Below are positions 28,556-57,500 of a stretch of 64,000 bases of DNA, one piece after another. The stretch lies in NCBI RefSeq assembly GCF_900110755.1, contig NZ_FOFF01000007.1, positions 124,001 to 188,000 on the forward strand, given 5' to 3'. Below the pieces are notes generated by a model. That model did no database searches and was not told the origin of the DNA. It was given only the letters and a program-made list of their open reading frames with translations. The DNA comes from Streptomyces sp. yr375. Lineage in GTDB: Bacteria > Actinomycetota > Actinomycetes > Streptomycetales > Streptomycetaceae. Every line of letters starts with the position of its first letter. Position 1 is the first letter of the stretch. Both the position numbers and the translations under genes were made by a program.

Positions 28556-28646
28556 GATCCACCTCCTCTTGCTCTTGGCGCCGGTTGCCGGATGGTCGCA
28601 CATCAAGCCTCCCACCCGCGGGCCGTCGGAACACCGCTGCACCGGC

Positions 28647-36477: not shown

Positions 36478-36529
36478 GCACCGTTCGGCGCCGGTCCGCA
36501 CGAGGGGAGGGACCGGAGCCGAACGGTGC
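36478..36529. promoter_or_regulatory. Long hairpin in the STAND/Wadjet divergent gap
   Basis: Left arm GCACCGTTCGGC-G-CCGGTCC pairs with right arm GGACCGG-A-GCCGAACGGTGC: 19 base pairs with one mismatch around a 12-base loop. Immediately after it, GCAGACGG occurs twice among GCGCG tracts. The 494-bp gap (36333-36826) holds no gene, so this is the prime candidate for an operator or for an RNA element in the jetA leader. Confidence 0.55.
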
Positions 36530-36826
36530 GGCGCGTACGGCGCGCAGACGGTTCGCAGACGGCGCGCGTACGACACCTCGAACGTCGTCGCCGCGCCCCC
36601 GGCCCTCTGACCTGCGCCCCCTGGCCCCGCCCCCGTGTCCCCGCCCGCGCGCGCGTGATCTACCGTGAGCCACGGCCGCTCCGGGACGGGCGACTCGGCC
36701 CGCCCACCGCTGAGGCCACGGCGGTTCTCCGCATTCCGCCCAGGTTGTCAGTGGTGGCCTTTACGGTGGTGAGAGCTGGGTAGGGCTCGCCGTCGGGGAA
36801 GGAGCCGTCGGGGAAGGGGGAGGCGG

Positions 36827-38572
36827 GTGCGCAGGGTTCCGCCGGAGATGTTCCGGTTCACCACGGGGGATCGTGCCGATCTCCACGGCGCGGTGCTGCG
36901 GGCGTTCGGCGCGGCCAACGAGCGGCTGGAGACGGCACTCGGGCTCGACGAGGTCCGGTCCCGGCTGCGCACGGTCGGCTGGCTGGACGCGATCACGGAC
37001 GAGGAACTGCACGAGGCGCTCAGAAAACTCCAGCACTGGAACCTGCTGGACGTCGTCCAGAACCACGCGGAGAACTACCGCACAGCCGAGGAGTACGAGC
37101 GCCGCAACCTCCAGTACTCCCTGACCCGCCAGGGCGAGGCCGCCATCGCGGGGGTGGAGCACGCGCTGACGGTGCTCGCGTCGACGGGCGCGCTCCAGAC
37201 CGCCGTACTGGAAGCGATCACCGACCGGCTCGACGAGCTGTACGTCCTGCTGGAGCAGCCCGCGTCGGCGGACCGCCGCATCTTCAGCACCCTCCAGGAA
37301 CTGGAGGGGCACCTCGAAACGCTGCTGGACAACACCAAGGTGTTCAACGGCGAACTGCAACGGCTGCTGCGCGCCGAAGGCACCGACGCCGGGGTCTTCC
37401 GCGAGGTCAAGGCGTCGACGGTGGCGTACCTGCGCGAGTTCCTGGTCAACCTCGACCGGCGCGGGGCCGGGGTCGCCGTCGCGGTGGCCCGGGTGGAGGA
37501 GCGCGGCACCGGTGTGCTGCACGAGCGCGCGCTGCGGGGCGCGGAGCTGCCTCCGTCGGCCGGGGCGGACCCGTCGGCGGCGTGGCTGGAGCGGCGCAGG
37601 GCGCGCTGGGCGGGGCTGCGGGCCTGGTTCCTGCCGGCCGACGGGTCGCCGCCCCGGGTCGAGCAACTGCACGACGTGGCCCGGCGGGCGATCGTCTCGC
37701 TGCTTCAGGTGCTCGACCGGATCACGGAGTCCCGTCGCCGTTCGTCCAGCGCCGTCCAGGACTTCCGGGAACTCGCCCGCTGGTTCGCCGCCGCGCCCAC
37801 GGAGGAGGACCTGCACCGGCTGTGGTCGCTCGCCTTCGGCCTCGGCTCCGCGCGCCACGCCCACCTCGCGCACCCCGATCCCGAGCTGGTCCCCGTCTCC
37901 CGGACCTGGGCCGCCGCACCCCCGGTGGAGGTGTCCGCACTGCTGCGCACCAGCGGCCGTACGGAGCGCTTCACCCGGACCGGCAAGGTGCGGGACGTCT
38001 CCGCGACCCGCGCCGCCCGAGCCGAGCGCGCCCGCCGCGAACGCGCCGAACTCCAGGCGGCCTGGCAGATGCTGGCCACGGACGGTCCCGTACGGCTCTC
38101 CGCCTTCGCCGAACTCGACGCCGAACTCGACCCGGCAGCCTTCGAGCGCCTGTTCGACCTGCTCGGCAGGGCCCTCTCGTCCTGCCCGGACAGCACGGGA
38201 GTACGGCGGGCCGCGAGCGCGGACGGCGCAGTGGAGATCGTCCTCGCGGCCATGGACTCGGCCGAGGCCGACGAGGCCGACGAGGCCGACGACCGGATCG
38301 CCACGCTGCGCACCTCGACGGGGGTGATGACCGGCCCGGACTACGTCGTCCAGATCCGCAACGCGGACGCAGGGATGGATGTGGGGATGGGCGTGGGGGT
38401 GGACATAGGGAGGACGGACGTAGGGGTGGACGTAGGGACAGGGCCGCGCCGCCTGAGCGCGCGGGCGGAGACGACCACTCCCCACCCGTCGACCACCCCG
38501 CACTCGACGACCACTCCCCACCCGTTGACCACCCCGCACCCGTCGACCGCACACGAGGAGGCCGTCGGATGA
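36827..38572 (+). CDS. jetA: Wadjet type III protein JetA (TIGR02677/DUF2397)
   Basis: This 581-residue MukF/kleisin-like subunit has an N-terminal winged-helix/dimerisation part (RFTTGDRADLHGAVLRAFGAANERL, LHEALRKLQHWNLLDVVQNH, EYERRNLQYSLTRQGEAAI) and a long helical middle with FSTLQELEGHLETLLD. The C-terminal winged helix covers about residues 400-500. In Wadjet, JetA bridges the SMC-like JetC heads and binds JetB. The last 70 residues are low complexity (Gly/Val-Asp, then TTTPHPSTTPHS repeats) and look like a local addition. GTG 36827 follows AAGGGGGAGG; ATG 36848 is an alternative. The stop overlaps jetB (ATGA). Confidence 0.93.
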   Translation: MRRVPPEMFRFTTGDRADLHGAVLRAFGAANERLETALGLDEVRSRLRTVGWLDAITDEELHEALRKLQHWNLLDVVQNHAENYRTAEEYERRNLQYSLTRQGEAAIAGVEHALTVLASTGALQTAVLEAITDRLDELYVLLEQPASADRRIFSTLQELEGHLETLLDNTKVFNGELQRLLRAEGTDAGVFREVKASTVAYLREFLVNLDRRGAGVAVAVARVEERGTGVLHERALRGAELPPSAGADPSAAWLERRRARWAGLRAWFLPADGSPPRVEQLHDVARRAIVSLLQVLDRITESRRRSSSAVQDFRELARWFAAAPTEEDLHRLWSLAFGLGSARHAHLAHPDPELVPVSRTWAAAPPVEVSALLRTSGRTERFTRTGKVRDVSATRAARAERARRERAELQAAWQMLATDGPVRLSAFAELDAELDPAAFERLFDLLGRALSSCPDSTGVRRAASADGAVEIVLAAMDSAEADEADEADDRIATLRTSTGVMTGPDYVVQIRNADAGMDVGMGVGVDIGRTDVGVDVGTGPRRLSARAETTTPHPSTTPHSTTTPHPLTTPHPSTAHEEAVG

Positions 38573-39942
38573 GCACGCTCGCCAACCAACTGGTGGTGGT
38601 CGAACGGGAAGAGGTCGCGCGGGGCATCCGGCTGCTGCTCGCCCAGCCGTTGATCACCGAGCGCGGCGACCCCGTGGCCTTCGAGGTGGTCCGGCGTCGC
38701 AAGGAGCCGTTGGCCAAGTGGTTCGACTACACCTGCGGCTGGAGTCTGGTGGTGGAGCCGCGGCGCGGCTACGCCCGGCTGCTCAAGGTCCGCCCGACCG
38801 CCGACGCCTCCCGTCCCGCCCTCCGTCCCCGCGCGGGCCGCGCGCCCTTCGATCGCCGCCGGTACGTGCTGCTGTGCGTCACCGCGGCGGAGCTGACCTC
38901 CGTACCGATGACGACCATCGGCCTGCTCGCCGACCGCGTCGTCCAGGCCATGGCCGCCGATCCGGCGCTCGCCCCGTTCGACACCACCAGCCGCCGCGAG
39001 CGGATGGCCTTCGTCGACGTCCTGAAGCTGCTGGAGTCGTACGGCGTCCTGGCGGTCGTCGACGGCCTGACGGAGTCGTTCGTGGACACGGCGGAGGCGA
39101 AAGTCCTCTACCGGGTGGACGTCACCCTCCTGATGAGGCTGCCCGCGGCCCCCGTCGGGCCGTCACGCCTCGCGCTGCCCGCACAGGAGGTGCCGGCCCG
39201 CTTCGAGGAACTCCTCGCGGAGCTGATGCGCGAGCGCCGCTACGGCACACCGCCGCCCGCCACGCATCCGGCGCAGCCGGAGCATCTGGCAGATGCGGCA
39301 GATGCGGCAGATGCGGCATATGCGGGAGATACGGCGTTTACGGCACATCCGGCGCAACTGGCAGCAGGGGACGAGGCGTTCGTCGTCTCCGACACCCGGC
39401 GCAACCTGTGGCTGCGCCACTCCGTACTGCGCCGCCTCTTCGACGACCCGGTCCTCTACAGGGAGGACCTGACCGACGACGAGCTGGCCTACCTCGCGTC
39501 CCCCACGGGCCGTCAGATCCTGCGGCGCGCGGTGGAGCAGGCCGGACTCGTCCTGGAGGAACGCGCGGAGGGCTATCTCCTCGTCGACCCCGACGCCGTG
39601 GCCACCGACTCCACGTTCCCGGACGACTCCTCGACCGCCCGGGTCGCCGCACTGCTCCTCCTCGAAGGCATCGCCGACACCCCCGGCGGCGCGACCCCCG
39701 AGCAGCTCGCCGAGGCGGCGTCCGCCCTGCTGCGGCGGTTCCCCCGCTGGGCGAAGGCCTACCAGGCGACCGAGGGCGCGCACCGGCTGGCCGACGACGC
39801 CGTGGCCGTACTGCGCGACTTCGGCCTCGCCCGCGCCATCGGCGACCGCGTCGTACCCCGCCCGGCCGCCCACCGGTACCGCGTGGCACACACGAGCACG
39901 ACCACCGCTACCGCCACGACCGAGGAAGGAGGCCCGCTGTGA
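38569..39942 (+). CDS. jetB: Wadjet type III protein JetB (TIGR02678/DUF2398)
   Basis: This 457-residue MukE/KITE-like subunit has family patterns EREEVARGIRLLLAQPLI, FDYTCGWSLVVEPRRGYARL, RRRYVLLCVTAAEL and RHSVLRRLFDDPVLYREDL, then a C-terminal winged helix (GAHRLADDAVAVLRDFGL). In the complex JetB sits on JetA near the JetC heads. A 9-bp repeat adds an Ala-Asp stretch near residues 241-255, in a loop between domains. Both ends overlap neighbours by 4 bp (ATGA with jetA, GTGA with jetC), so the subunits are made in one coupled series. Confidence 0.92.
   Translation: MSTLANQLVVVEREEVARGIRLLLAQPLITERGDPVAFEVVRRRKEPLAKWFDYTCGWSLVVEPRRGYARLLKVRPTADASRPALRPRAGRAPFDRRRYVLLCVTAAELTSVPMTTIGLLADRVVQAMAADPALAPFDTTSRRERMAFVDVLKLLESYGVLAVVDGLTESFVDTAEAKVLYRVDVTLLMRLPAAPVGPSRLALPAQEVPARFEELLAELMRERRYGTPPPATHPAQPEHLADAADAADAAYAGDTAFTAHPAQLAAGDEAFVVSDTRRNLWLRHSVLRRLFDDPVLYREDLTDDELAYLASPTGRQILRRAVEQAGLVLEERAEGYLLVDPDAVATDSTFPDDSSTARVAALLLLEGIADTPGGATPEQLAEAASALLRRFPRWAKAYQATEGAHRLADDAVAVLRDFGLARAIGDRVVPRPAAHRYRVAHTSTTTATATTEEGGPL
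39289..39333 (+). repeat. 9-bp tandem repeat inside jetB
   Basis: Three perfect GCAGATGCG units and two degenerate ones encode (ADA)n between the N- and C-terminal parts of JetB. The frame is kept. Confidence 0.9.
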
Positions 39943-42900
39943 ACGTGACCGAACTGCCGGTACGCGGCACGGACCGGCCGGACGCCGCTCCTCCCACGGC
40001 TCCCACAGACACCACCACCCGCCCCACGGGCGGCACCCCCGAGGCCCGCAACCGGTGGCAGCCCGTCCGCGCCGGGATCCTCAACGTCTGGCGCTACTAC
40101 GACGAGACGTTCACCTTCCACGAGGGACGGCTGCTGCTGCGCGGACCGAACGGCACGGGCAAGTCGAAGGCGCTGGAACTGCTGCTGCCGTTCCTGTTCG
40201 ACGCGAACCTCAGGCCCCACCGCCTCTCCACCTTCGGCGGTTCCGAACGCACCATGCACTGGAACCTCATGGGCGAAGGCGCCACCGGCAAGACCCGCGT
40301 GGGATACGTGTGGCTGGAGTTCGGCCACGCCGACGGCCGCTGGTTCTCCTGCGGCGCCCGGCTCCAGGCCAGCATCCACACCAGCGGCGTCCAGACCGAC
40401 TACTTCACCACCGCCCGCCGCCTCGCCCGCCCCGACGGCGTGTCCCTCGTCAACGAGGCGGGCCAGCCCCTCACCCGGCCCGCGCTCGCGGATGCTCTCG
40501 CCCTGGCGGGCGACGGCGAGATCCACGCCACGGCGGCCGACTACCGGGCCACGATCCGCCGCACCCTCTTCGACGGCCTCGGCGAGCAGCGCTTCGAGGC
40601 GCTGATCACCGCCCTGCTCCAGCTCCGGCAGCCGAAACTCTCCGAGCGGCTCGACCCGTCCCTCCTGTCCACGCTGCTGTCCAAGGCCCTCCCGCCGCTC
40701 GGCGAGAGCGAGATCGGCGAACTCGCCGAGGGCTTCGAGCGGCTCGACCGGCAGCGCGAGGACCTGAAGCGGCTGGACGAGGAGGTCACCGCCGCTGCTG
40801 CCATTGCCGGTCGCCAACGCGGTTACACCCAGCGGGTGTTGCGGTCGGCCGCCGCGCAACTGATCTCCGCGACGACGGACATGGACAACCGCGCCCGGAT
40901 CGCCCGGGAGAGCGCGGAGCAGCACCGGCAGGCCGTGCACGACCAGGAGGCCACCGGGCGGCGCAGGGCGGAGTTGGGCGAGCGCGTCGCGGAACTCGAG
41001 GCCGCCGTCCAGGGGTTGCTGGACAGCGACCTCTACCAGCAGGGCAAGGAGCTGGACCAGCTCCGCCGCCGTACCCAGGACACCGCGCAGGCGGCCGACC
41101 GGCTGCGCGCCACCGCCGACGACCGGCAGCGCCGGGCCCGCGCGGACGAGGAGCAGGCGGCCACCGCCGCCCGGCAGGCCGAGGAGTGCGCCCACCACGC
41201 CCGGGACACCGCCGAGGACGCCGAACGGACCGCCCGCACCGTGGGCATGGAGTCGGTGCACACGGAGATGCGCGCCGCCCTCGCCGACGCGCCCGCGGAC
41301 GCCCCCACCGCCGACGACCCCGCGCGGGAGGCGACCCGGGTCCGGCAGGTCCGCCACCTGCTGCGCGGCGCGGTCAAGGGCCGCCGCGACCAGATGGCCG
41401 CCGTCCGGGAAGCCGTCGAACGCCATGAGCGGGCCGTCGGCGACCGCACCGCCGCCGAAACGCTCCTCGACGGCGCCCGGGACGGCCTCGCCGAGGCCAT
41501 GACCCGGCGCGACGAAGCGGCCCGGGAGTGCGCGCAGGCCCTGCGGGCCCAGGCGGAACAGCTCCGGGAATGGGCCGCCGGATGCGTGGAGCTGCGCATC
41601 GGCGACGTCGAGGAACTGGCCGCCCGAGCCGCCGTCGAGGCGGACGTCCTGGCCGTCGTGGAGCGCGCCGTACGCGCCCTTGACCAGCAGATCACCCAGT
41701 CCGAGACCCGGGTCGAAGCGGCCCGGAAGACCGGCCACGATCAGCGGGAGAGGTTCGTCCGGGCCATCGAGGCACTCACCGCGGAAGCCGACCTTCCGCC
41801 GGTCGCCCCGCCGACCCGTACGACGGACCGTTCGACGATGGAGGGCGCGCCCCTGTGGCGGCTGGTGGCCTTCCGCGACGGCGTTCCCGAGGAGGTCCAG
41901 GCGGGCGTCGAGGCGGCGCTCGAGGCGTCGGGGCTGCTCGACGCGTGGCTGAGCCCCGAGGACACCATCGACCTGGCCGGCCACGACACCTTCGCGGCGC
42001 CCGGCTGGGCGACCCCCGCGCCGGGGCCGTCCCTGCGGGAGGTCCTGCGCCCCGAGAAGGACATCCCGGTCGCCGCCGACCGCGTGGACCGCCTCCTCGC
42101 GGGCATCGCCTACGGGGAACACCTCCCGCACTGGCACACCGCCGCCGTCGCCGCGGACGGTAGCTGGCGACTGGCCGCGGCCATCGGCACCTGGAGCAAG
42201 GCGGCCCCCGCCCACATCGGCGCCCACGCCCGTGACCAGGCAAGACAGCGCCGTATCACGGACCTGACCGACCGGCTCACCGCGCTGAACACCCACATCG
42301 CGGCGCTCGACACCCGCCTCGGCGCGCTGCGCGAGAGCCGCTCCCGCCTCGACGCCGACCTCGCCGCCCGCCCCCGGCACCGGGAACTCGACGAAACACG
42401 CCGCCGGTGGGACCGCGCGGAGGAGGCGGTCGGCGTCCGCGACGACGCCGTCCGCCGGGCGGTCAAGGTCCTCGACGGACGCGAGGCCGACGTCAGCCGC
42501 TGCCTGCGCACCCTGGGCCGACTGTCCTCCGAACACGCCCTGCCCACCGAGCGCGGCCGGCTGAACGAACTGTCCGCCGCCGTCGACGCGTTCGCCGACA
42601 CCGCCGACGCCTGGGCCGACGCCCACCTGCACTGGTCCACCGCCCTCGGCCGGTCCGCCGCCGCCCGACACCAGGCCGAACGCTCCACGGAGGCCGCCCG
42701 CGAGGCCCAGGCCGAAGCCGACCGCGCCGACGCCGAGGCGCGGGCGCTCGCCGCCACCCTCCAGGCCGCGGACAGCACCGTCGGCGAGGACTTCCGCCAG
42801 ACAGCCGTCCGCATCGGCGAGTTGAGACAGGACGTCCGCCGCAGCCGTGAGCAGATCAGCGCGAGCGACGGCGAACTGGGCCGCCTGCAACGCCGTATCG

Positions 42901-44150
42901 GCTCCCTGGAAGCGACCATGGCCATGGACGCCCTGCGCCGCGACGAGGCGACCGCCGCCCGCGACGCCTCGGCCCTCCGCTTCCGGCACCTGTGCCTGCT
43001 CGGCCTGCCCCAGGACGCGGGCGTCCCCCCGGACCGCACCGCGTCGGGCCTGACCGCGTCGGACGGCACCCGCGCCACCCTGGAAGCGGCCCGCGAGATC
43101 GCCGCCGAGTGGCCCGGCCTCGCCCACGAACCACGCAACCTCGGGGACGCCGTCCAGCGCCTCTCCGAGGCCGTCCACCAGGCCCGTCAGGTCCTCGGCC
43201 GGCGCGCCGACCTCGACCTGGAGGCCGACGACGACGTCCAGATCTTCACCGCCACCATGGACGGCGCCCGCATCGGCGCGACGGGCCTGCTCCACACCCT
43301 CACCGCCGAACGGGACGGCAGCCGCGACGACATCACCGTCGCCGAGCGCCGCCTCTTCGACCAGACCCTCACCGGCGACACCCGCCGCCACCTCGCCGCC
43401 CGCATCCGCCAGGCCAACGAACTCGTCGACCGCATGAACGGCCACCTGGAGCGCGTCCGCACCGCGTCGAAGGTCTCCGTCCAACTGGTGTGGCGCATCC
43501 ACCCCGACCTCCCGGCCGGCACCCAGACCGCCCGCACCCTCCTCCTCAAGGAACCGAAGAACGTCACCGACGCCGACCGCGAGGCCCTGCACGACTTCTT
43601 CCGGGCCCGCATCGAGGAGGCCAAGGCCAGGAACACGGCGGCCACCTGGGAGGAACAGCTCGCCGAAGTGCTCGACTACACGGCCTGGCACCAGTTCGTC
43701 GTCCGCCTCGACCGCGCGAACGGCGCCGGCTGGCAGGTCCTCACCAAAAAACTGCACGGCGCGCTCTCCGGCGGCGAAAAGGCCATCGCCCTGCACCTGC
43801 CCCTCTTCGCCGCGGTCGCCGCGCACTACGAGGCCGTCCCCGAAGCACCTCGCCCGATCCTCCTCGACGAGGTCTTCGTCGGCGTCGACACCACCAACCG
43901 CGGCCAGATCTTCGCCCTCCTCACCGCCCTAGACCTCGACTTGATGCTCACCTCAGACCACGAGTGGTGCCACTACCGCGAACTCCCCGGCATCGCCATC
44001 CACCAACTCATCACAGGAACAGACGGCGACGACGCGGTCACCAGCGCCCGGTTCGTATGGACGGGGGCGGGGATGCGGGCGGATGAGGGGGATGGGGGAG
44101 ATGCGGGGGGCGCCGGGGAAGTGGGAGATGAGAGGGACGGAGGGGACTGA
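39939..44150 (+). CDS. jetC: Wadjet type III protein JetC, SMC/MukB-like ATPase (TIGR02680)
   Basis: This 1403-residue ATPase has Walker A GPNGTGKS at residues 69-76 near the N-terminus. Long Arg/Glu/Ala-rich coiled coils (about 260-560 and 780-1200) flank a hinge-like globular part. The C-terminal head carries signature LSGGEKAIALHLPLFAAV and Walker B RPILLDEVFVGVD. JetC is the motor that extrudes DNA loops, and Wadjet uses it to test whether DNA is a small circle. GTG 39939 has GGAGG six bases upstream and overlaps jetB. The tail after TGTDGDDAV is Gly/Asp-rich low complexity continuing into a purine-rich tract. Confidence 0.94.
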   Translation: MNVTELPVRGTDRPDAAPPTAPTDTTTRPTGGTPEARNRWQPVRAGILNVWRYYDETFTFHEGRLLLRGPNGTGKSKALELLLPFLFDANLRPHRLSTFGGSERTMHWNLMGEGATGKTRVGYVWLEFGHADGRWFSCGARLQASIHTSGVQTDYFTTARRLARPDGVSLVNEAGQPLTRPALADALALAGDGEIHATAADYRATIRRTLFDGLGEQRFEALITALLQLRQPKLSERLDPSLLSTLLSKALPPLGESEIGELAEGFERLDRQREDLKRLDEEVTAAAAIAGRQRGYTQRVLRSAAAQLISATTDMDNRARIARESAEQHRQAVHDQEATGRRRAELGERVAELEAAVQGLLDSDLYQQGKELDQLRRRTQDTAQAADRLRATADDRQRRARADEEQAATAARQAEECAHHARDTAEDAERTARTVGMESVHTEMRAALADAPADAPTADDPAREATRVRQVRHLLRGAVKGRRDQMAAVREAVERHERAVGDRTAAETLLDGARDGLAEAMTRRDEAARECAQALRAQAEQLREWAAGCVELRIGDVEELAARAAVEADVLAVVERAVRALDQQITQSETRVEAARKTGHDQRERFVRAIEALTAEADLPPVAPPTRTTDRSTMEGAPLWRLVAFRDGVPEEVQAGVEAALEASGLLDAWLSPEDTIDLAGHDTFAAPGWATPAPGPSLREVLRPEKDIPVAADRVDRLLAGIAYGEHLPHWHTAAVAADGSWRLAAAIGTWSKAAPAHIGAHARDQARQRRITDLTDRLTALNTHIAALDTRLGALRESRSRLDADLAARPRHRELDETRRRWDRAEEAVGVRDDAVRRAVKVLDGREADVSRCLRTLGRLSSEHALPTERGRLNELSAAVDAFADTADAWADAHLHWSTALGRSAAARHQAERSTEAAREAQAEADRADAEARALAATLQAADSTVGEDFRQTAVRIGELRQDVRRSREQISASDGELGRLQRRIGSLEATMAMDALRRDEATAARDASALRFRHLCLLGLPQDAGVPPDRTASGLTASDGTRATLEAAREIAAEWPGLAHEPRNLGDAVQRLSEAVHQARQVLGRRADLDLEADDDVQIFTATMDGARIGATGLLHTLTAERDGSRDDITVAERRLFDQTLTGDTRRHLAARIRQANELVDRMNGHLERVRTASKVSVQLVWRIHPDLPAGTQTARTLLLKEPKNVTDADREALHDFFRARIEEAKARNTAATWEEQLAEVLDYTAWHQFVVRLDRANGAGWQVLTKKLHGALSGGEKAIALHLPLFAAVAAHYEAVPEAPRPILLDEVFVGVDTTNRGQIFALLTALDLDLMLTSDHEWCHYRELPGIAIHQLITGTDGDDAVTSARFVWTGAGMRADEGDGGDAGGAGEVGDERDGGD

Positions 44151-44236
44151 GGAGACGACGGAAACGAGGGAGACGACGGAAACGAGGGCGATTAAGGGAA
44201 ACGAGGGAGATGAGGGAGATAAGGGAGGCGGCGGAG
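44070..44236 (+). repeat. Purine-rich degenerate repeat tract, jetC end and jetC-jetD gap
   Basis: The coding strand is almost entirely A and G here, with repeated GAGGGAGA, GACGACGGAAACGAGGG and GGGAGATAAGGGAGG units. It encodes the acidic Gly-Asp tail of JetC, then fills the 86-bp gap before jetD and ends in jetD's own ribosome site. Confidence 0.8.
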
Positions 44237-45544
44237 ATGACCGGGACAGGAAATCCAGGACGTGAGCGCCCCACAACTCCCCCTCCGCCTCCCCCTTCTG
44301 CCTCCCCCCTCCCCCTCCCGGCTCCCCCACACCTCACCACCCCCCACCTGCGCCCGCTCTGGCAGGCGGTGCACGACCGCATCTCCTCCGGCCGCCCCGT
44401 CACCAGCGTGCGCCTGGGCCCGCTGGACGACGACGAACGGGAGGCCCTGGCCGACCTCCTCGGCATGGACCGCCTGCCGGACCAGCGCCCCACCGTCCGC
44501 CTGACCAGGCTGGCGGACGCCGTGGCCGAGGCCGGCGGCGGCACCGTACGCGACCTGGTCACCCAGATCATCGGCCCACTCGACGACCGAGCGGCCGAAC
44601 GCCGTCGCCGCGACGACGAACGCACGGCACTGTGGTCCTGGCTGACGACCCACGACACGATCCGAACCCAGCCCGTCCTCACGGACTGGACGACGTACTG
44701 CCGCACCCAGGGCCTGCTGGCCGGCTCCACCACCCGCACCCGCGACCTCCTCTCCGCCGCCCTCACCGTGCTCGCCGCGCTGCCCGCCGAGGGCGAGCCG
44801 CTACCGGTGTTCGCCGCGCGGGTCCGGCACGGCGACCCGCACGCCCTGGACGACGGCACCCGCCTGTCCGCCCTCGTCCTACGGGCCCTGTCCACGCTCT
44901 ACGACACACCCGTGCCCGACAGTTCCCAAGCGCGGCGCGAGTTGTGGTCCCGGGCCGGTGTCGCCGACGACGACCTGTCCACGACGGTCCTGGCCGCCGG
45001 ACTCCGCCTGACCGGCGAGGGCACGCTGAGCCGCCTGGCCCGCATCTGCGCCGAGGCGGGCCAAGCGGTCTCGCTCACCCTCGCCCAGTTGAGATCACCG
45101 GGCGAGTACGGCTTCCCGGCCCGACCCGTCCACATCACGGAGAACCCGAGCGTCCTCGCCCTGGCCCTGCGCCGCTTCGGCGCCGACTGCCCACCCCTCG
45201 TCTGCACCTCGGGCTGGCCGAACGGCGCGGCCGTCCGCCTCCTCCACCTCCTGGCAGCAGAGGGCGCGACCCTCCACTACCACGGCGACTTCGACGGCGA
45301 GGGCATACGCATCGCAGCCCACGTCATGCACAAAACCCCCGCAGTCCCCTGGCGCATGACCACCCACGACTACCTGACAGCCCTCGCCACCACCCCCCAA
45401 GCCCCCTCCCCAGGCCGCCTCACCGAGGCCCCGTGGGACCCGACCCTCACCCCAACCATGGCGACCCACGACAAAGCAGTCATGGAGGAATCGATGACGG
45501 ACACCCTCCTGCAAGACCTGTCACGAGAACGCACCCACCAATGA
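44237..45544 (+). CDS. jetD: Wadjet type III nuclease JetD (TIGR02679/DUF2399, Toprim-like)
   Basis: This 435-residue protein has a proline-rich N-terminal tail, a DUF3323-like N-terminal domain, and a C-terminal Toprim-like domain (DUF2399) with VHITENPSVLALAL supplying the catalytic Glu and LHYHGDFDGEGIRIAAHV the DxD metal pair. JetD is the topoVI-A/Spo11-like subunit that cuts plasmid DNA after extrusion stalls. The ATG at 44237 has GGGAGG eight bases upstream; ATG 44210 is in frame but would translate repeat sequence. It completes a four-gene system with all key residues present. Confidence 0.92.
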   Translation: MTGTGNPGRERPTTPPPPPPSASPLPLPAPPHLTTPHLRPLWQAVHDRISSGRPVTSVRLGPLDDDEREALADLLGMDRLPDQRPTVRLTRLADAVAEAGGGTVRDLVTQIIGPLDDRAAERRRRDDERTALWSWLTTHDTIRTQPVLTDWTTYCRTQGLLAGSTTRTRDLLSAALTVLAALPAEGEPLPVFAARVRHGDPHALDDGTRLSALVLRALSTLYDTPVPDSSQARRELWSRAGVADDDLSTTVLAAGLRLTGEGTLSRLARICAEAGQAVSLTLAQLRSPGEYGFPARPVHITENPSVLALALRRFGADCPPLVCTSGWPNGAAVRLLHLLAAEGATLHYHGDFDGEGIRIAAHVMHKTPAVPWRMTTHDYLTALATTPQAPSPGRLTEAPWDPTLTPTMATHDKAVMEESMTDTLLQDLSRERTHQ

Positions 45545-45704
45545 ACGGGCCTGCGGGCATCGTGGCCGTGGCTACGGTCAGTCCATGCAGTGGATCACCC
45601 TCCTGCTGTGCCAGCCGCGCCCTGAAGTCGGCGAAGCCGCCGTAGGACCAGCCGACGTCCGGACCGGAGGTGTCTCCATCTCCCGGGAACACCATCAATC
45701 CCAT
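45480..45704 (-). pseudogene. Probable truncated hypothetical gene (remnant)
   Basis: The first 36 or so codons from the ATG at 45704 (MGLMVFPGDGDTSGPDVGWS, then YGGFADFRARLAQQEG) look like the start of a small protein common in Streptomyces, with GAAGAGG upstream. After about 45597 the sequence loses that character, and the frame runs antisense into the jetD 3' end. It is best read as a fragment left by rearrangement at the island boundary. Confidence 0.45.
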
Positions 45705-45825
45705 GCCATCCTCTTCATTCCCCGAGCGCACAGGATCCGGAGGGAACGACGTCCGCAACCGAGATAATCGGGGCGACCCTCAGCTCCGCCGGCGTCGACT
45801 GACGGCCGACACCCTCGCTACGGCC

Positions 45826-45905
45826 TGTCTGAAGGACGTCGACGGGATCGATGCCGATGAGTGGACACCCCGGGAACTCCGGCACAGCCTCCTGTCACGA
45901 AGTTA
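45826..45905 (+). pseudogene. Integrase C-terminal fragment from an earlier element
   Basis: The residues LKDVDGIDADEWTPRELRHS closely match residues 313-332 of the intact integrase encoded at 59029-60198, and the DNA is also similar. Homology stops where the left attachment repeat begins, so the remainder of the gene was deleted. It marks a former element of the same family at the same tRNA. Confidence 0.8.
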
Positions 45906-46013
45906 GACACGCACCAACGCCAGAGGGCCCTTACCTACCCGGTAAGGGCCCTCTGAACTGCTGTCTAGCTGTCGGGGTGGCGGGATTTGAACCCACGACC
46001 TCTTCGTCCCGAA
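45894..46013. repeat. Left attachment site: 120-bp direct repeat (att)
   Basis: It matches 60229-60348 at 116 of 120 positions. It contains a copy of the tRNA terminator hairpin and, from 45972, the 3' 42 bp of tRNA-Pro. The tRNA copy is incomplete because the 5' half is absent after 46013. A 17-bp piece of its outer end (GTCACGCAGTTAGACAC) occurs again at 46112-46128 just inside the element. Confidence 0.93.
45922..45954 (-). terminator. Duplicate tRNA-Pro terminator hairpin
   Basis: Perfect 14-bp arms AGAGGGCCCTTACC and GGTAAGGGCCCTCT flank loop TACCC. The stem is the same as at the intact tRNA; only the loop differs. Confidence 0.8.
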
Positions 46014-46053
46014 GCAACTTGGGCGAGGGCTCTGCCTTGGGCTGCGACGCGGT

Positions 46054-46503
46054 TCACCTGTGGTGATGGTCCGTAGACGTCCGCGCTCGTTCGCTGCTGT
46101 GCGTGGGTGTTGTCACGCAGTTAGACACCCACGCTTGCTGACCACAGCTCAGCAAGCGCAGGTCGTTCGAGACCATGACCTGAGCGAGGCGTCCGGCGAT
46201 GGCCACGACTTCGGGCCAGGCTGATGCCTGAAGGTACTCAGCGTCGGTGTCGTGGGGTGCCTCCGCGGCGGCAGCGTTGAGCGCGACACCGAGGGCCCGC
46301 ATAAGGGTTACCTCTTCCTCGGTTCTCAAGCTGATGCCGAGGTACCGCTCGGGCTCATCGGCGTCACAGAAGTCATCGAAGAGCGTGTGGAAGACGTGGT
46401 CGATGTTCTCGAACTCCGAAGGGTCGAGCCACACGTCCCGCTGCCATGGTGGATTGGCCAGAGCCAAGACCACAGGTACGACGTGGACACGGTGATTCGC
46501 CAT
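46054..46503 (-). CDS. SCO4402-like hypothetical protein
   Basis: This protein of about 149 residues has the acidic pattern WLDPSEFENIDHVFHTLFDD, then FCDADEPERYLGISLRTEEEV, known from small Streptomyces proteins of the SCO4402 type; their function is unknown. The ATG at 46503 follows GGAG; the frame upstream to 46608 looks non-coding. The last 25 codons run through the repeated 17-bp att-end sequence and look unlike the rest, so the original 3' end has probably been replaced at the junction. Confidence 0.65.
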   Translation of the reverse strand: MANHRVHVVPVVLALANPPWQRDVWLDPSEFENIDHVFHTLFDDFCDADEPERYLGISLRTEEEVTLMRALGVALNAAAAEAPHDTDAEYLQASAWPEVVAIAGRLAQVMVSNDLRLLSCGQQAWVSNCVTTPTHSSERARTSTDHHHR

Positions 46504-47219
46504 GACTTGGGCTTCTCCGCTCACGAGCCCGAGCCTAGCGACCACACCCTCAGAAGGCGCTGGTGTTTTCAGGAGCACCACTTTAGGAGAGAGGCGGGGG
46601 CATCGCACCTGTGACCTGGGGCTTCGATGACTCGTGAGATGCCCAGCAACTCAACCGCCAGACACCCTCGTTGACCGTGGCTGACCGCTGCATCTGGCAC
46701 GACAGTGGCACGGACCTCAGCCGACGACAGCCAGCCACGACGGCGGGTGCGACGGCCGACCAGGCGCGCGTATGCCTCGCTGCACCCCACCGGCCTCAGC
46801 CACGCTACTGGCTTGCGCCGTCGACCAGAGCAAGCCGCGACGGCCGGCCCCGTGACGACGGCACGTGAGCCCACAGCTTGGGAAGCTGCGATCATTCAGA
46901 TACGACTCGGAACGATCACTCGGCAGACGTCCGCCACACGTCCAGCCGGACCCTTACCTCGTGCTTGTGGGTGTGCCAGAAGACGCCTCGACGGAGGCCC
47001 CGAGGGCGGGCAGATCCATCCCCAGCGGCATGGCCGTGATCTCGGCCAGCGCTACGACGTCAGACACACCGCCTACACGTATGAAGACGCCAAGGGCTGG
47101 CGGCCGATGACCAGCGAAACTGCACCGGCCCTGGAGGGCTCCTACGTCGGCTCGCCAAGTCCATCTGTCAGCGGCGCCTCGTACCATCCAACTGACGGCG
47201 GCAACCTGGGAGGGGCAAA
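46504..47219. other. Gap without a confident gene at the left end of the AICE
   Basis: Several overlapping frames exist, but none has a ribosome site, codon bias and protein-like sequence together. Short stretches such as YLVLVGVPEDASTEAPRAG (+ strand, near 46957) could be relics. The ribosome site and promoter of the gene at 47220 lie at its right end. Confidence 0.55.
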
Positions 47220-48203
47220 GTGGCCGAGTCGGCTGAGCACGCTTTTCTATCCGATGCAGTTCTGCAAATTCTTGAGAATACGTCAGAGTCTCGCCTTTAT
47301 GCGTACAAAGAGGCGGACCGTAAACGTTTTGATTTCGCTTGCGATCTCGCCACCAATTGGAAGAGGGCTGTTTCGGGGCAGACGCTCTGGAAACATAACG
47401 AGGGTATCGATAAAGACATCAGGATGCTGCTTTCTGAAGCAGCATCAGACGTCCTCGTCTATGTTGCCCGCACTACCATGAAGAATAAGGCGGTGCTGTA
47501 CGAGGCTATCTCCGACTACAAAAAAGCCGGGCTGGCAGACAGGCTTGACCGGCTGCGCGTATTCTGGGTTCCAGAAGACTTTGACGCCGACTCGGAGAGT
47601 CATAGGAGTCTAGTTTACACAGAACTCGAAAACTCGTTGTCTCGTGATCTCCTGCTTGCAGTTGTTCTCGGCGGCATCACTGAGCGTGATGTCGCTTCCT
47701 TTGCGACGTGGAGCGGAATGTGTGGACTCAGTCTCGCAGTCTTGGCGCAAGTCGAAGCATCTGGCTTTGGTAACTACACGCAGCTCGGAAAGCAGATGGG
47801 TGTCGGGGTCGCTCCGGTAAAGGAGAGGATTATCCGTCTGAACCTTACGGGATTCATCGTCCGTAGCCCGGATCCTCGAAAATCGGGAACCATTTATGAA
47901 GTGTCGCCCAAGGGGTACGCCCTCATGGATCTTTGTGGAAGACTAGCTGCCGAGCGAGACAAAGGTGGCCACGTGGACTCTGGATTGAGGCATGTGTGCT
48001 CACTGCTGGGCATCGATACGAGGAGAGTTGACCTCTGGCCTTTTATGCCCGGTTATGATGCGTCACGCGATGGGGGCCTAAGTCCTCATCCTCACCGCGA
48101 TACCTCCTTGCGGCTGGCCAAAGAAATTAACGACGCACTCGCTAGATGGGGTGTGTCACTGCCAGACCCTCACTACGAAATTCCCGACCTGAATTTTTCG
48201 TAA
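47220..48203 (+). CDS. Unrecognised protein with a central winged-helix domain (AICE cargo)
   Basis: This 327-residue soluble protein starts at GTG 47220 with GGGAGG six bases upstream. The N-terminal 150 residues (RLYAYKEADRKRFDFACDLA, DKDIRMLLSEAASDVLVYVA, RTTMKNKAVLYEAISDYKK) form an alpha/beta domain I do not recognise; the acidic and lysine residues around DVLVYVARTTMKNK vaguely recall restriction-endonuclease folds. Residues about 175-240 are a MarR-like winged helix (YTQLGKQMGVGVAPVKERI, then wing and SPKGYALMDL). The C-terminal 90 residues are unassigned. Codons are much richer in A and T than in neighbours, a sign of transfer. It is convergent with the HNH gene. It may be a DNA-sensing or nuclease component of a defence pair; that is a guess. 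Confidence 0.7.
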   Translation: MAESAEHAFLSDAVLQILENTSESRLYAYKEADRKRFDFACDLATNWKRAVSGQTLWKHNEGIDKDIRMLLSEAASDVLVYVARTTMKNKAVLYEAISDYKKAGLADRLDRLRVFWVPEDFDADSESHRSLVYTELENSLSRDLLLAVVLGGITERDVASFATWSGMCGLSLAVLAQVEASGFGNYTQLGKQMGVGVAPVKERIIRLNLTGFIVRSPDPRKSGTIYEVSPKGYALMDLCGRLAAERDKGGHVDSGLRHVCSLLGIDTRRVDLWPFMPGYDASRDGGLSPHPHRDTSLRLAKEINDALARWGVSLPDPHYEIPDLNFS

Positions 48204-48489: not shown

Positions 48490-49380
48490 TCAATACCATC
48501 GACGATACCGATTACTAGGGTCCTCAACTTTGTCGGATTTTCTGGAATTGCAGTTCTCGCAGAGCAACTGGAGATTGGTGACGTCATTCAAACCGCCTCG
48601 CGCAAGCGGCACCATATGGTCATAATTACCAACGTTCAATGTGTCAATGAGCCCGGACAAGTCTGTTCCGCAAGCCGTACACCTACCGCGATCGCGGTAA
48701 AAGACGGCCCTGCGTGCCCACATCGGGGGGCGAACTCGCTTCAGTTCCCCGTCACGCACAAAAAGGTCCGACAATGATGCTTCGTCCGCGTCAAAACCGT
48801 CACTAGCGACCTCCTCAACATACCCGGAAAGAAATTGGTTCAAATTAGCCAAGGCTCGCCGGTTCAGAAACATCACATAAAAGACTTCGTCGGTGACACG
48901 GGACATGAGGTCCTCGTAAGCCTGAGTCCACCGTAGATTCAAAAGGTAGTCGTAGCACGCATTTACGACACAATGCGGATCCTTGGGTTCTGATGAGCTA
49001 CCTTCACTGCCGGGGATCCCCTCAGGGTCAGGCTCGTCAGGAATGAAGAACAAGGGCTCGTCGATGATTCCATATTGCAACATCGCGGCGTCAACAGGAA
49101 GAATCCAATCCGGATAGATGGGGTCAGGGCCGAATGGCACTCGTGTTGGGCCGTCAGTATCATTCATCAGGATTTCATCAGCAACGAAGCGGATGAATTT
49201 ATGAAGGGCGGAATCCTTCTGCCAATGTGGAAGGAAATCGTAAATTCCGTCGTTTACCGTCAGTCCTTCCAGGTGGCGCAAATGTGAGAACGGGTCGCGC
49301 ATGATGGTGTCCACTGCATTGGCAATCCGGTACGTACGGAAGTACTCATGCGTCAACCACTCGTTCTTCTTTGCCCTCAC
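48490..49380 (-). CDS. HNH endonuclease-domain protein (AICE cargo)
   Basis: This 296-residue protein has a C-terminal HNH nuclease domain (about 225-290): RGRCTACGTDLSG with the first CxxC, YDHMVPLARGGLNDVTNLQL with the catalytic DH and Asn, and LCENCNSRKSDK with the second CxxC. The N-terminal 220 residues are acidic and helical, with FRTYRIANAVDTIMRDPFSH and a Pro/Asp-rich insert, and match no family I know. GTG 49380 has GGGGAG upstream. Its composition is A+T-rich like the gene at 47220, so both probably arrived together. HNH proteins of this size act as restriction nucleases, effectors or homing enzymes; an effector role is inferred. Confidence 0.78.
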   Translation of the reverse strand: MRAKKNEWLTHEYFRTYRIANAVDTIMRDPFSHLRHLEGLTVNDGIYDFLPHWQKDSALHKFIRFVADEILMNDTDGPTRVPFGPDPIYPDWILPVDAAMLQYGIIDEPLFFIPDEPDPEGIPGSEGSSSEPKDPHCVVNACYDYLLNLRWTQAYEDLMSRVTDEVFYVMFLNRRALANLNQFLSGYVEEVASDGFDADEASLSDLFVRDGELKRVRPPMWARRAVFYRDRGRCTACGTDLSGLIDTLNVGNYDHMVPLARGGLNDVTNLQLLCENCNSRKSDKVEDPSNRYRRWY

Positions 49381-49804: not shown

Positions 49805-50899
49805 TCAGGAGGCGGCTGGGATGCGCCAGAGTGGGGCCGTGTACTGCTCCGGGCGGCTCTTGACGAGCAATCGGCGCAGGTCATCGCGCTGTGAGCCGTC
49901 GAGGTTCAGGGCCTCGGTGAGGTGGCGGAACGTCGTGTGCGTGACTCCACGGCTTCGGGCTTCTGCCTCGAACTGAGCGAGCTGGCGTAGTACTGACTCA
50001 GCATCGAGCTTCGTCGGCCGCTGCTCCTTGAGCCAGAGGGCCTTGTTGCGCTCGTAGTCGATTTCGGAGAAGCCGCAGATCTCGCGGCTCAGTGCTTCCA
50101 CCTGGCCCAGGGTGGTTGTCGACATGATGGCGCGGGCCAGCTCGTTGCGGCTCAACGCGTCGTCCAGGTCGACCGCGTGGAGTGTCGGGCCTTCGTCTGT
50201 CAGGGGGATGGGAAGGCCGGCGTCTCGGATCTCGCATGTGCCGCGTACGCCGCGGGCTGTTGCCGTGAGCATGCCGGTTGCTTCCGAGGGGTGCCAGTCC
50301 AGGACCGGACCGACCGGCTCGGCGTCCTTCGCCGTGAAGGTGTGGACGAGGGGGCCGAGCATGCTGCGCAGGTCCTCGGGCGACAGTTCGCCGTCCAGGC
50401 CGGGGCCTGCGACCAACAGGCGGATTGGGGCGTTCACTTGGCCGCACGCTGCCAGTGTTAGGGAGTCCGCGAGCGGGCTCTTCAGCGTCGGTTCGTCGCC
50501 TCGGGCCAGCACGTCGCCGCCGACGTCCAGGAGATCGATTGAGGTCGGCTGTAGGTGAGTGACCAGGTCTTCGAGCTGGCGCGTGACGCCCTCGGCGCCG
50601 TGGCTCGGGTCGATCAGCGCGAAGGCGTGTGGGAGCTCTGCCGCTAGGCGGGGGAGTGTGGAGCCCGCCGGTGCGATGGGGCGGGCCTTCGCCGGCACCT
50701 TCCGTACGGTCGGGGTGAGTGGTTCGAGGCCGGTGAAGTCGTCGGGTCCTCGGGGGCCCGGTACGGGGTCGATCAGCAAGCGGTCCCACGCGTACGTGAG
50801 GATCACCGCCTGGTCCTCGTCGCCGTACAGGGCGGCGTGAAGCATTGCGGCGGCGACTGCGTCGCCCCCTCCTCCTGCTGCGACGATCAACCGCGTCAT
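49805..50899 (-). CDS. DUF1152 domain-containing protein
   Basis: This 364-residue protein begins with a Rossmann-like glycine loop (MTRLIVAAGGGGDAVAAAML) and has VDLLDVGGDVLARGDEP-type acidic strands, both features of DUF1152. The family is frequent on Streptomyces mobile elements and has no known reaction; the first motif suggests nucleotide or dinucleotide binding. The ATG at 50899 is chosen over an upstream GTG at 50932. It is divergent from the first GntR gene across an operator-bearing 81-bp gap, so that repressor may also silence it. Confidence 0.8.
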   Translation of the reverse strand: MTRLIVAAGGGGDAVAAAMLHAALYGDEDQAVILTYAWDRLLIDPVPGPRGPDDFTGLEPLTPTVRKVPAKARPIAPAGSTLPRLAAELPHAFALIDPSHGAEGVTRQLEDLVTHLQPTSIDLLDVGGDVLARGDEPTLKSPLADSLTLAACGQVNAPIRLLVAGPGLDGELSPEDLRSMLGPLVHTFTAKDAEPVGPVLDWHPSEATGMLTATARGVRGTCEIRDAGLPIPLTDEGPTLHAVDLDDALSRNELARAIMSTTTLGQVEALSREICGFSEIDYERNKALWLKEQRPTKLDAESVLRQLAQFEAEARSRGVTHTTFRHLTEALNLDGSQRDDLRRLLVKSRPEQYTAPLWRIPAAS

Positions 50900-50937
50900 G
50901 GGCCCAAGACTACGGGGTTGCCCATTGACCACTCACC

Positions 50938-50980: not shown

Positions 50981-51721
50981 ATGCCTCAGATCGAGGAGAC
51001 GCAGCCGAAGTATCTCCAGATCGCTCACTTCATTCGCGATCAGATCCTGCGCGGTGATCTGCGGCCGGGGGACGAGGTTCCATCGGAGCGGCAGTTGGCG
51101 GCTGACTGGAAGGTGTCCCGGCCTACGGCGGCGCGGTCTTTGGAGGCGCTGAGCAATCAGGGGCTCGTCGAGAAGCGGCAGGGGTCCGGGACGTACGTGC
51201 GGAGCCTTGAAGTGAACAGGCGGGCACGGGAGTTGTACGGGCGGGCTCGGCAGACCGGGAAGATCTACACGCCCGGCGAGTACGCGGTCATCACCTCCGC
51301 CGGGTGGCTGGATGCGCCGGATCATGTCGCTGAGGCCTTGGGGCTGGTGAAGGACCGGCGGGCCGTGCATCGCCGGCGGGTGACCAACAACCAGGACGGG
51401 CCCATCACGCTGTCTACCTCGTGGTTCGCGCCGGAGATCGGGCAGCGGGCGCCCAAGCTCCTGGAGCCTGAGCGGATCCAGGAGGGCACCCTGATGTACG
51501 TCGAGAACATGACGGGGCGGCAGGGGAGTTACGCGGAAGACCGTATGTGCGCTCGGCAGGCTACCGACGAGGAAGCGGCTGACCTCCAGCTTGCGGCCGG
51601 GTCTGCTGTGCTGATCGTGCATCACGTCGTCTTCGACCTCCAGGACCGGCCGTTGGAGTTCGCCGAAGCCACCTACCCGCCGAACCGTTGGGCGTTCGAG
51701 CAGGGGTATCCGCTCACCTGA
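50981..51721 (+). CDS. GntR-family repressor with UTRA domain (KorSA-like)
   Basis: This 246-residue protein has a GntR winged helix at residues 8-75 (YLQIAHFIRDQILRGDLRPG, DEVPSERQLAADWKVSRPTA) and a UTRA domain (about 95-240) ending in EFAEATYPPNRWAFEQGYPL. KorSA of pSAM2, a protein of this type, keeps the element quiescent by repressing its activator and transfer genes. The ATG has GAGGAGGGGA upstream. Repeated AGTGGCTA sites lie on both sides of the gene. Confidence 0.88.
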   Translation: MPQIEETQPKYLQIAHFIRDQILRGDLRPGDEVPSERQLAADWKVSRPTAARSLEALSNQGLVEKRQGSGTYVRSLEVNRRARELYGRARQTGKIYTPGEYAVITSAGWLDAPDHVAEALGLVKDRRAVHRRRVTNNQDGPITLSTSWFAPEIGQRAPKLLEPERIQEGTLMYVENMTGRQGSYAEDRMCARQATDEEAADLQLAAGSAVLIVHHVVFDLQDRPLEFAEATYPPNRWAFEQGYPLT

Positions 51722-51997: not shown

Positions 51998-52438
51998 ATG
52001 GTGGCTTACACGATCGACCGCTATCCCTCTGAGGACTCACCGCGGCTCGGGGCCATGACCCTGCATCCGGCTCCGGAGTCGGTTCCCAGGGCCCGGCGCT
52101 GGTTCCGGAAGTTCATCGCCCCGTACAACCCGGCCTGTTCGGTCGAGGACTGCGCGCTGATGATCTCGGAGCTGGTGACCAACGCCATCCGCTACGGCCA
52201 GGCTGACGAACCGTGGCTGGTGCGGGTGGAGTGGTTTCGGGATGACACCTCGCTCCGCATCGAGGTGCATAACCCCGGCTTCCCGGCCAATGTGCGGCTT
52301 CGGCGGCCTGACGCCAATGACGCGCACGGGCGGGGGCTGCTGCTGGTCGACTCGATCGCCGAGTCCTGGCATTCCGGGCCCAGTCGCTTCGGCGGAACGG
52401 TGGTCGCCTTTGTCGTCGCCGATGCCTGGCCGTCGTGA
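51998..52438 (+). CDS. HATPase-fold ATP-binding protein (RsbW/anti-sigma-kinase-like)
   Basis: This 146-residue single-domain GHKL protein has N box LMISELVTNAIRYG (about 54-67), G1-like EVHNPGFPANV and G2-like HGRGLLLVDSIAESW. Streptomyces encodes many such stand-alone ATPases, some acting as anti-sigma factors. On this element it may link transfer to host physiology, which is inference. The ATG at 51998 is used. Confidence 0.85.
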   Translation: MVAYTIDRYPSEDSPRLGAMTLHPAPESVPRARRWFRKFIAPYNPACSVEDCALMISELVTNAIRYGQADEPWLVRVEWFRDDTSLRIEVHNPGFPANVRLRRPDANDAHGRGLLLVDSIAESWHSGPSRFGGTVVAFVVADAWPS

Positions 52439-52530: not shown

Positions 52531-53259
52531 ATGGCGTATGAAGTGGAGGCACCGAAGTACGTACGCCTCGCGCAGACCATCCAGCAACGCATCGAGGATG
52601 GCACCTATCCGCCCGGTACACGGGTGCCCAGCGAGAATCAGCTCGTGCAGTCCTTCGGGATGTCCCGTCCGACCGTCGTCCGGGCGCTGGAGCTGCTGAA
52701 GCGTGACGGCTGGCTGGAATCGCGGCAGGGCTTCGGCACGATCGTGCGCGGACGGCCGGCCGTCGTCGAGCACAAGGACCGCCGGGGGAGCGAAGCGCTC
52801 ACACGGGATGAGACCCGGACGCCGGGCCGCCTGCTGGAGGTGGGTCAGGTTCCTGTTCCGGCGCGGGTCGCCTCCGCGCTTGGGCTGCCGAAGCGGGCCG
52901 AGGTTCTCGTCCGTCGATTCCTTGTCGTGGAGGACGGCGAACCTGTTGAGCTGGTGTCGTCGTACTTCCCCGACGGCATGGTCGACGGTACCGAGCTGGG
53001 GAGCGCCGAACCGCTGAGTGGCGGCAGCCGTGCACATCTGGAAGCACGCAAGAAGGTTCGCTTCGATCACGTGACGGAACGGGTCTCTGCTCGCCTGCCT
53101 GACCCTGGTGAGGCCGAGCTGCTGGAGCTTCCCGACGGTGTGCCCGTGCTGAGCGTCCTGGTCGTGGCGGCTGATGCTGCCGGTCAGGCGCTGCAAGTGT
53201 CTGACGTGCTCCTTCCCGCGGATCGGCAAGAGCTTGAAGACACCTACCGCTTGCGCTGA
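52531..53259 (+). CDS. Second GntR-family repressor with UTRA domain
   Basis: This 242-residue protein has a winged helix (YVRLAQTIQQRIEDGTYPPG, TRVPSENQLVQSFGMSRPTV; about 9-75) and a UTRA domain (about 90-235). It differs enough from the other GntR protein (50981) to need different operators. Sites with core AAGTCAACT occur before this gene and twice before the SCO3933-type gene at 53851, so it probably controls the replication-transfer operon. An ATG start at 52531 is used. Confidence 0.87.
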   Translation: MAYEVEAPKYVRLAQTIQQRIEDGTYPPGTRVPSENQLVQSFGMSRPTVVRALELLKRDGWLESRQGFGTIVRGRPAVVEHKDRRGSEALTRDETRTPGRLLEVGQVPVPARVASALGLPKRAEVLVRRFLVVEDGEPVELVSSYFPDGMVDGTELGSAEPLSGGSRAHLEARKKVRFDHVTERVSARLPDPGEAELLELPDGVPVLSVLVVAADAAGQALQVSDVLLPADRQELEDTYRLR

Positions 53260-53850: not shown

Positions 53851-54201
53851 GTGCGTGTGATCCGCGTTGATGCCTCGACCGCCACGATCCTGCTCACCGA
53901 AGCGCCGGCGCCGAAGGTGCGTGACCGGCAGACCGGTGAGATCGCGAAGGACGCCGTGAGTGGCGAGGCGCTGATGACCATCGGCGTCGTGTACATCGAC
54001 GAGGGTGAGTCGTCGCTGATCCAGGTCACCATCCCGGAGAGCGGAGTGACGGACGGTCTGACCGTCGGTGCTCCGGTCTCGCTGCCGGGGCTCGTCGCCC
54101 GGCCCTGGCAGTCCGTGTTCAACGGTCGCGAGCGGCACGGCATCGCCTACCGCGCCACGGCCGTCATGCCCGGTGCGTTCCATATGGCTCAGGCGGGCTG
54201 A
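53851..54201 (+). CDS. SCO3933-type regulatory protein
   Basis: This 116-residue small beta-rich protein has MRVIRVDASTATILLTEAPA, RDRQTGEIAKDAVSGE and LVARPWQSVFNGRERHGIAY. It matches the SCO3933 family encoded in front of the TraB-like gene in many AICEs and thought to be regulatory. GTG 53851 follows AAGGAG by eight bases. It is first in the transfer-replication operon under the AAGTCAACTTG sites; the next gene starts 5 bp after its stop. Confidence 0.82.
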   Translation: MRVIRVDASTATILLTEAPAPKVRDRQTGEIAKDAVSGEALMTIGVVYIDEGESSLIQVTIPESGVTDGLTVGAPVSLPGLVARPWQSVFNGRERHGIAYRATAVMPGAFHMAQAG

Positions 54202-57163: not shown

Positions 57164-57412
57164 GTGTTGTTCCGCCCGCACCTGCCCGACACCCCGCACC
57201 TGCCGACCACCAGCGCCACGCAGCACCAGGTGCAGGCCCCGGCACCGCCCGCCGGCCGCTCGCTCACCCCCTACGCGGGTGCGGTCGCCGCCGTGGTCGT
57301 CGTCGGCATCGTCCTCACTGCGCTCCTGGCAGCCGTCGCTGTCACGGCTATCTCGGTCGCCATCGCCGCCGTGGTCCTGCGCTCCCTCGTCACCGGCGCC
57401 AACAGGCGCTGA
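57164..57412 (+). CDS. SpdD-like spread protein
   Basis: This 82-residue protein has a Pro/Thr-rich N-terminus (FRPHLPDTPHLPTTS) and one long hydrophobic segment (YAGAVAAVVVVGIVLTALLA, continuing to VVLRSLV), the SpdD pattern. The GTG at 57164 is chosen because AAGGAGG lies six bases upstream. It completes the spread cluster before the replication gene. Confidence 0.72.
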   Translation: MLFRPHLPDTPHLPTTSATQHQVQAPAPPAGRSLTPYAGAVAAVVVVGIVLTALLAAVAVTAISVAIAAVVLRSLVTGANRR

Positions 57413-57500
57413 CCGGCCTCCGGGGCGGCAAACGCCGCCAAGCATCCCGCCGCCCCGGGGCCGTCCCTCCCAACCACCGAAACAGCCGAAAGGGACTTCC

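Follow-up and report, generated by a model that had tools for sequence, protein, structure and literature searches.

A complete type II Wadjet operon occupies positions 36848-45544 of the window, the 64,000-nucleotide stretch of Streptomyces sp. yr375 DNA that we analyzed, with all four genes at full length and in the order A-B-C-D on the + strand. They are jetA (36848-38572; DUF2397), jetB (38569-39942), jetC, encoding the SMC-like ATPase (39939-44150), and jetD, encoding the nuclease (44210-45544; DUF3323 and DUF2399), and the PADLOC type II profiles JetA2, JetB2, JetC2 and JetD2 cover them near full length (E-values of 3e-261, 7.5e-132, 0 and 9.2e-143, respectively); gene starts were picked from the open reading frame analysis, that of jetA being chosen among alternatives. 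The jetC reading frame is open, and its product aligns to a solved JetC (9qe0) with GPNGTGKS, LSGGEK and LLDEVF all retained, which we take to be the Walker A, signature and Walker B motifs, respectively; JetD had no match among solved structures. The operon shares its gene content, gene order and type II profiles with known JetABCD systems, and its JetC is close to 9qe0. It differs from them in adjoining an integrase relic at a tRNA gene, and its activity is predicted. The left neighbor is a gene for an nSTAND NTPase with WD40 repeats (32229-36332, - strand; Pfam match), and further to the left, at 27523-28603, is a toxin-antitoxin-like pair of PIN-domain and DUF433/HTH genes.

The attL core of a pSAM2-like AICE lies 413 bp beyond the jetD stop codon. 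The element measures 14,335 bp from core to core, which is also its predicted circle length, and is docked at a tRNA-Pro(CGG) gene (60306-60380, - strand; ARAGORN). A 120-nt direct repeat of 97% identity bounds it (45894-46013 on the attL side, 60229-60348 on the attR side), within which a 74-nt run is identical (45940-46013 and 60275-60348). Repeat comparison places the attL core, a 3′ part of tRNA-Pro, at 45957-46013 and the attR core at 60292-60348 (both + strand), and a search of the full genome recovers the core just twice, against no occurrence of a reversed control pattern. Family matches identify most of the genes in between: an SCO4402-family (DUF7945) gene (46054-46608, - strand), an HNH endonuclease-domain gene (48490-49380, - strand), a DUF1152 gene (49805-50932, - strand) and, all on the + strand, two GntR/UTRA regulators (50981-51721 and 52531-53259) on either side of a HATPase_c_2 protein (51998-52438), an SCO3933-family regulatory protein (53857-54201, with a longer frame from 53674), a TraSA-like FtsK/SpoIIIE-type transfer protein (54207-55580), the RepSA replication initiator (57279-58844, likely start 57564; Pfam E-value of 4.4e-152) and a tyrosine integrase (59029-60198; Phage_integrase). 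A gene for a 327-residue protein (47220-48203, + strand) had no family match in the searches made, and a small frame (58841-59029, + strand) is placed as an excisionase candidate by position only. The HNH protein shows weak similarity to the HNH parts of IscB and PtuB. The order att, cargo, tra, rep, xis-like, int, att is that of pSAM2-kind AICEs, which likewise carry RepSA and an FtsK-type transfer protein and dock at a tRNA 3′-end. Unlike in those elements, the cargo is AT-richer, with GC down to 0.56 near 47-49 kb, and of unassigned function; excision is predicted. An earlier note on this DNA had described a circularizing element about 430 bp from Wadjet with a circle of about 14 kb, and both figures agree with ours; we infer that both systems would work. 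The interval it marked, 44237-47219, captures the adjacency but truncates jetD at its start and leaves out the bulk of the AICE, and the note misses the relic that lies between the two systems.

That relic begins 285 bp past jetD, where 68 nt (45829-45896, + strand) are 84% identical to positions 59965-60032 of the AICE integrase and represent int1, the remnant of an older integrase. The sequence then skips about 196 bp and resumes in the hairpin that normally trails the integrase gene, here the arm formerly behind int1 (45894-45956, + strand), whose second copy is at 60229-60291. The relic is most similar, at 88%, to the integrase that G004 carries at this tRNA. An origin as a copy of the resident integrase is ruled out, both by the 84% identity against 94-97% for the adjoining att arm and by the closer G004 integrase. 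The outer side of attL is thus the end of an older element rather than plain chromosome. Accretion is recognized by traces of two or more elements that share a site specificity; the integrase relic and the repeated att arm left of attL are such traces, and they place an earlier element at the tRNA first and the AICE later.

Comparison with relatives locates the left edge of the insertion within 36525-36848, since homology to G017 (L080) ends at 36525, 323 bp before jetA. This genome has a homolog of the nSTAND gene, which therefore lies outside the insertion, near the same tRNA, with other genes between nSTAND and tRNA-Pro that are presumably UvrA-like, glyoxalase-like and AraC-like, as named by looking at their sequences. 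The right flank (2 kb) or the tRNA itself was matched in 81 of 81 genomes. When the 20 kb left of tRNA-Pro was fetched from 20 relatives, seven (L070, L072, L074, L077, L080, L088 and L089) shared core synteny with the window, which stops before the tRNA at about 17-32 kb of the window in six and reaches 36525, with the nSTAND gene included, in L080; the remaining 13 gave only short or element-borne matches. Wadjet, relic and AICE thus share a single variable insertion. Integrases or their relics stand beside tRNA-Pro in seven of the 20 (L070, L071, L076, L078, L082, L083 and L088), with two copies each in L071 and L082. The same type of AICE also occupies this tRNA in G024 and L083, where the 20 kb examined contain no Wadjet. 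A left attachment copy of the earlier element was looked for in the window and not found, nor do repeats bracket the window Wadjet (36800-45560), which has attachment sequence on its right side only; the extent of the earlier element and its inclusion of Wadjet are hence putative, a point against the reading proposed next.

We consider it very probable that the linkage arose by serial insertion, or accretion, at a single tRNA-Pro(CGG) hot spot. The 3′-end of this tRNA gene is a recurrent target of tyrosine-integrase elements. An earlier element docked there, leaving the integrase tail as its sole remainder, with Wadjet on the far side of that tail, in the same variable insertion, probably as cargo or a fellow passenger of the earlier insertion. 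The 14.3-kb AICE later entered this tRNA gene as well and split the att site beside the old tail. AICEs have been described to accrete at tRNA genes (PMC9513070, PMC3218068). The case described in PMC9513070 likewise has successive elements at one tRNA, with a remnant devoid of a transfer gene beside a complete element; the window differs from it in holding a complete Wadjet operon on the outer side of the remnant. Repeated docking at one hot spot suffices to make Wadjet and the AICE adjacent, and the neighborhood requires no working relation between them. While integrated, the AICE is chromosomal DNA and no substrate for Wadjet. Once excised, it would form a 14.3-kb circle that Wadjet should cut, and the AICE is for that reason probably kept mostly in the integrated state.

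Whether Wadjet itself came with the first element is a separate question. We infer that it did, and it is likely that it arrived by such a dock, the alternative being that Wadjet is an ordinary chromosomal operon beside which integrases landed and that the first element never carried it. We judge this alternative possible, though the less probable course of events. The missing left att copy and the nSTAND neighbor shared with G017 speak for it; against it, the G017 homology stops between nSTAND and jetA and is followed there by other genes before tRNA-Pro, and Wadjets elsewhere are bracketed by direct repeats, as detailed below. Phylogeny bears on both sides. In a JetA-D tree of 46 rows and 2679 columns, L102, L093, L090 and L104 form a clade with the window at a support of 96/94, a fork that is unresolved in a smaller tree without jetC. 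In L102 (Actinacidiphila), the same tRNA-Pro is again the neighbor, at 2 kb from Wadjet, and an att-like piece follows jetD, suggesting that this place is not wholly accidental for Wadjet, which counts against accretion. L104 and L090 carry an integrase and a relaxase-like protein (weak MobB match), L104 also MobC, with tRNA-Arg and tRNA-Thr in the lee of the integrase in L104 and L090; L093 has no integrase, relaxase-like protein or tRNA. Thus, four of the five members of the window clade are docked at tRNA or integrase sites, against one (L117) of the 36 other Streptomycetaceae rows (Fisher 0.0002, with groups picked after the data were seen). In the sister clade (27 rows), most Wadjets have no integrase in the stretch examined, as a chromosomal operon would predict. 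The stronger proposal that the Wadjets of L090 and L104 are proven element cargo was rejected, as 40 kb of G082 yielded no left att copy, and the 43-nt piece of tRNA-Arg in G081 is on a different contig.

Our preferred reading, accretion, is also supported by the rarity of the arrangement. We examined 118 other Wadjet loci, namely the best 80 of 126 JetD relatives in the GTDB collection and 38 fetched loci, with flanks limited to about 2.5 kb on the upstream and 10 kb on the downstream side, and sought RepSA, the transfer protein and the integrase with profiles built for this analysis. The earlier note had named unlinked occurrence of the two systems across relatives as evidence against its own reading, and this is what we find: RepSA and TraSA-type FtsK were near none of the 118 loci. 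An integrase was near three (L090, L104 and a fragment in L211), against none in 20 random loci. JetD is encoded in 18 of 48 and 22 of 70 other Streptomyces genomes (40 of 118), and among same-contig pairs in these 40, none lies within 30 kb of tRNA-Pro, positions being compared by eye and fragmented genomes possibly splitting the two genes across contigs. The nearest JetD on one contig is about 60 kb off (G029 and G144), being in both a distant JetD at about 60.3 kb (G029:C2:202237 and G144:C1:1789074). The JetD of G040 (L041:1170-2394) is split over two frames. On plasmids, JetD gave 26 records, of which only three match 80% or more of the query, their replicons measuring 850 kb to 2.8 Mb; the others include partial matches on smaller replicons. 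Within the flanks and contigs examined, then, the Wadjet-AICE pairing is not conserved.

This result bears on the two explanations in which linkage has a function. An AICE-encoded Wadjet inhibitor, for which the 327-residue protein (47220-48203) and the SCO4402-family, DUF1152 and HNH proteins would be candidates, is suggested by the presence of cargo genes without known function; however, none of the AICE genes matches any inhibitor known, cargo of this sort is commonplace in AICEs, and an inhibitor would need no linkage, which is in any case not found at other Wadjet loci, so that we hold this explanation to be very improbable. That Wadjet polices excision of the AICE, or that the AICE shelters beside Wadjet under selection, is hardly credible, as a circle inside the target range reported in PMC10586767 and a distance of only 413 bp are set against absence of the pair at all 118 other loci, the lack of a same-contig JetD within 30 kb of tRNA-Pro in other genomes, the relic of another integrase between the two systems and the fact that cutting a circle requires no genetic linkage. 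The tension that the earlier note saw between Wadjet and a circular intermediate stands on paper, 14.3 kb being inside a range reported mostly for type I (PMC10586767), whereas its suggestion that close linkage signals tolerance, an element-coded inhibitor or policing is not supported, given the absence of the pairing elsewhere and a relic that shows repeated docking. The pair in itself is an ordinary outcome of accretion, yet it is a natural setting in which an effect of Wadjet on integrative elements in their circular stage could be tested cleanly.

The relatives of the window Wadjet contain a possible trace of such conflict. The L090 and L104 Wadjets are 95% identical, and in both the integrase and relaxase-like genes are open while jetC is broken, by different mutations: in L104 (L104:7752) a stop replaces Trp, and in L090 (L090:6334, about 6530) a stop replaces Arg and there is a one-base shift. 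The jetC of L102 is open. Among 74 usable loci of 80 (L108, L112, L135, L147, L158 and L167 were dropped for a missing or cut jet gene), further broken jetC genes were seen in L113, L118 and L129, such that jetC is broken in two of two loci with open mobility genes against three of 72 others (Fisher 0.004, with groups seen before the test, L090 and L104 being sisters and the L113 and L129 breaks perhaps assembly errors). An either-or in which Wadjet is intact where the integrase is dead or absent (the window and L102) and jetC is broken where the integrase is open (L090 and L104) draws on these four loci and is only suggestive, and for these reasons we treat it as a lead.

Direct repeats around other Wadjets suggest that type II systems may often travel in small insertions at docking sites of this kind. 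The bracketing test covered 109 operons of the 118 loci, nine being dropped because their span was outside 6.5-12 kb or the operon was not found. Direct repeats bracket 13 of the 109, against none of 124 control placements from 43 loci, which overlap within loci and are hence not independent; inverted repeats bracket two of the 109 and five of the 124. In L138 the repeat is a tRNA-Val 3′ part and the unit holds little beyond jetDABC; in L105 and L129 it is the 3′-end of a tRNA (uracil-5-) methyltransferase-like gene; and in L111, L121, L122, L124 and L126, which belong to a single Wadjet clade and may therefore go back to one event, it is the remains of a glycosyl hydrolase family 1 gene 3′-end. 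The L104 repeat is a piece of relaxase, and four have no assignment (L148, L165, L166, of 21-22 nt, and L208). Longer flanks at 20 loci showed repeats in two, one of them L199, whose repeats were rejected as att sites because they belong to a palindromic hairpin family. A joined empty site for the L129 unit was sought as proof of insertion, and only the right flank was matched. The second Wadjet of yr375 itself (L007/L008, G000:C36:88551-102615) lies between attachment-like 155-nt direct repeats of 86% identity, 13.9 kb apart, whose sequence can be read as the 3′ part of a tRNA-Thr together with its hairpin; the unit contains Uma2, jetDCBA and a DEAD helicase, and no integrase was recognized in it. 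Among loci with a tRNA gene within 2.5 kb, the operon lies 3′ of that gene in eight of eight, and within 5 kb in 11 of 12; the sign tests on these counts use loci that are not independent (several are Amycolatopsis with tRNA-Arg) and exclude L164, where the tRNA call falls inside the operon. These units resemble defense and genomic islands at tRNA genes in placing a defense operon at an integration hot spot, and they differ in that some, such as L138 and the second Wadjet of yr375, hold little beyond Wadjet between direct repeats, with no integrase seen.

Wadjet cuts circles below about 50-100 kb, nicked ones included, according to work mostly on type I, type II being described as little studied at the date of that account, which also reports that Wadjet coexists with some plasmids or is encoded on them (PMC10586767). 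In Clostridium, Wadjet in the recipient reduces plasmid conjugation by some five orders of magnitude (PMC12287153), and in Actinobacteria, 42% of which carry Wadjet, the Streptomyces copies are enriched toward chromosome ends (PMC10482375). We speculate, while thinking it unlikely in this general form, that Actinomycetota type II Wadjets travel in units that measure about 9-14 kb and for the most part lack their own integrase. These would dock at the 3′-ends of tRNA or conserved genes and should pass a circular stage that the cargo itself would cut, a conflict visible in the jetC/integrase either-or. If true, a defense system would be spread by the kind of molecule that it destroys, and self-restriction would have to be avoided through late expression, immediate integration, outside help or the loss of one function. 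Our literature search, with most subscription journals outside its scope, found no report of Wadjet units bounded by att repeats.

Several minor observations concern the units themselves. The Wadjet unit between tRNA-Val repeats is about 9 kb long, and Lentzea xinjiangensis has a 94% copy whose right end carries a transposase-like gene (L138:9372-18593 and L139:9994-18358). In L144, L153, L155 and L156, the gene order is jetD-A-B-C with tRNA-Arg upstream and the operon on the 3′-side of the tRNA. Finally, the 3′-end of the methyltransferase-like gene (L129:12340-12420) occurs in several copies per Streptomyces genome, as would be expected of a busy integration site, and one such copy lies 184 bp past jetD in G017.
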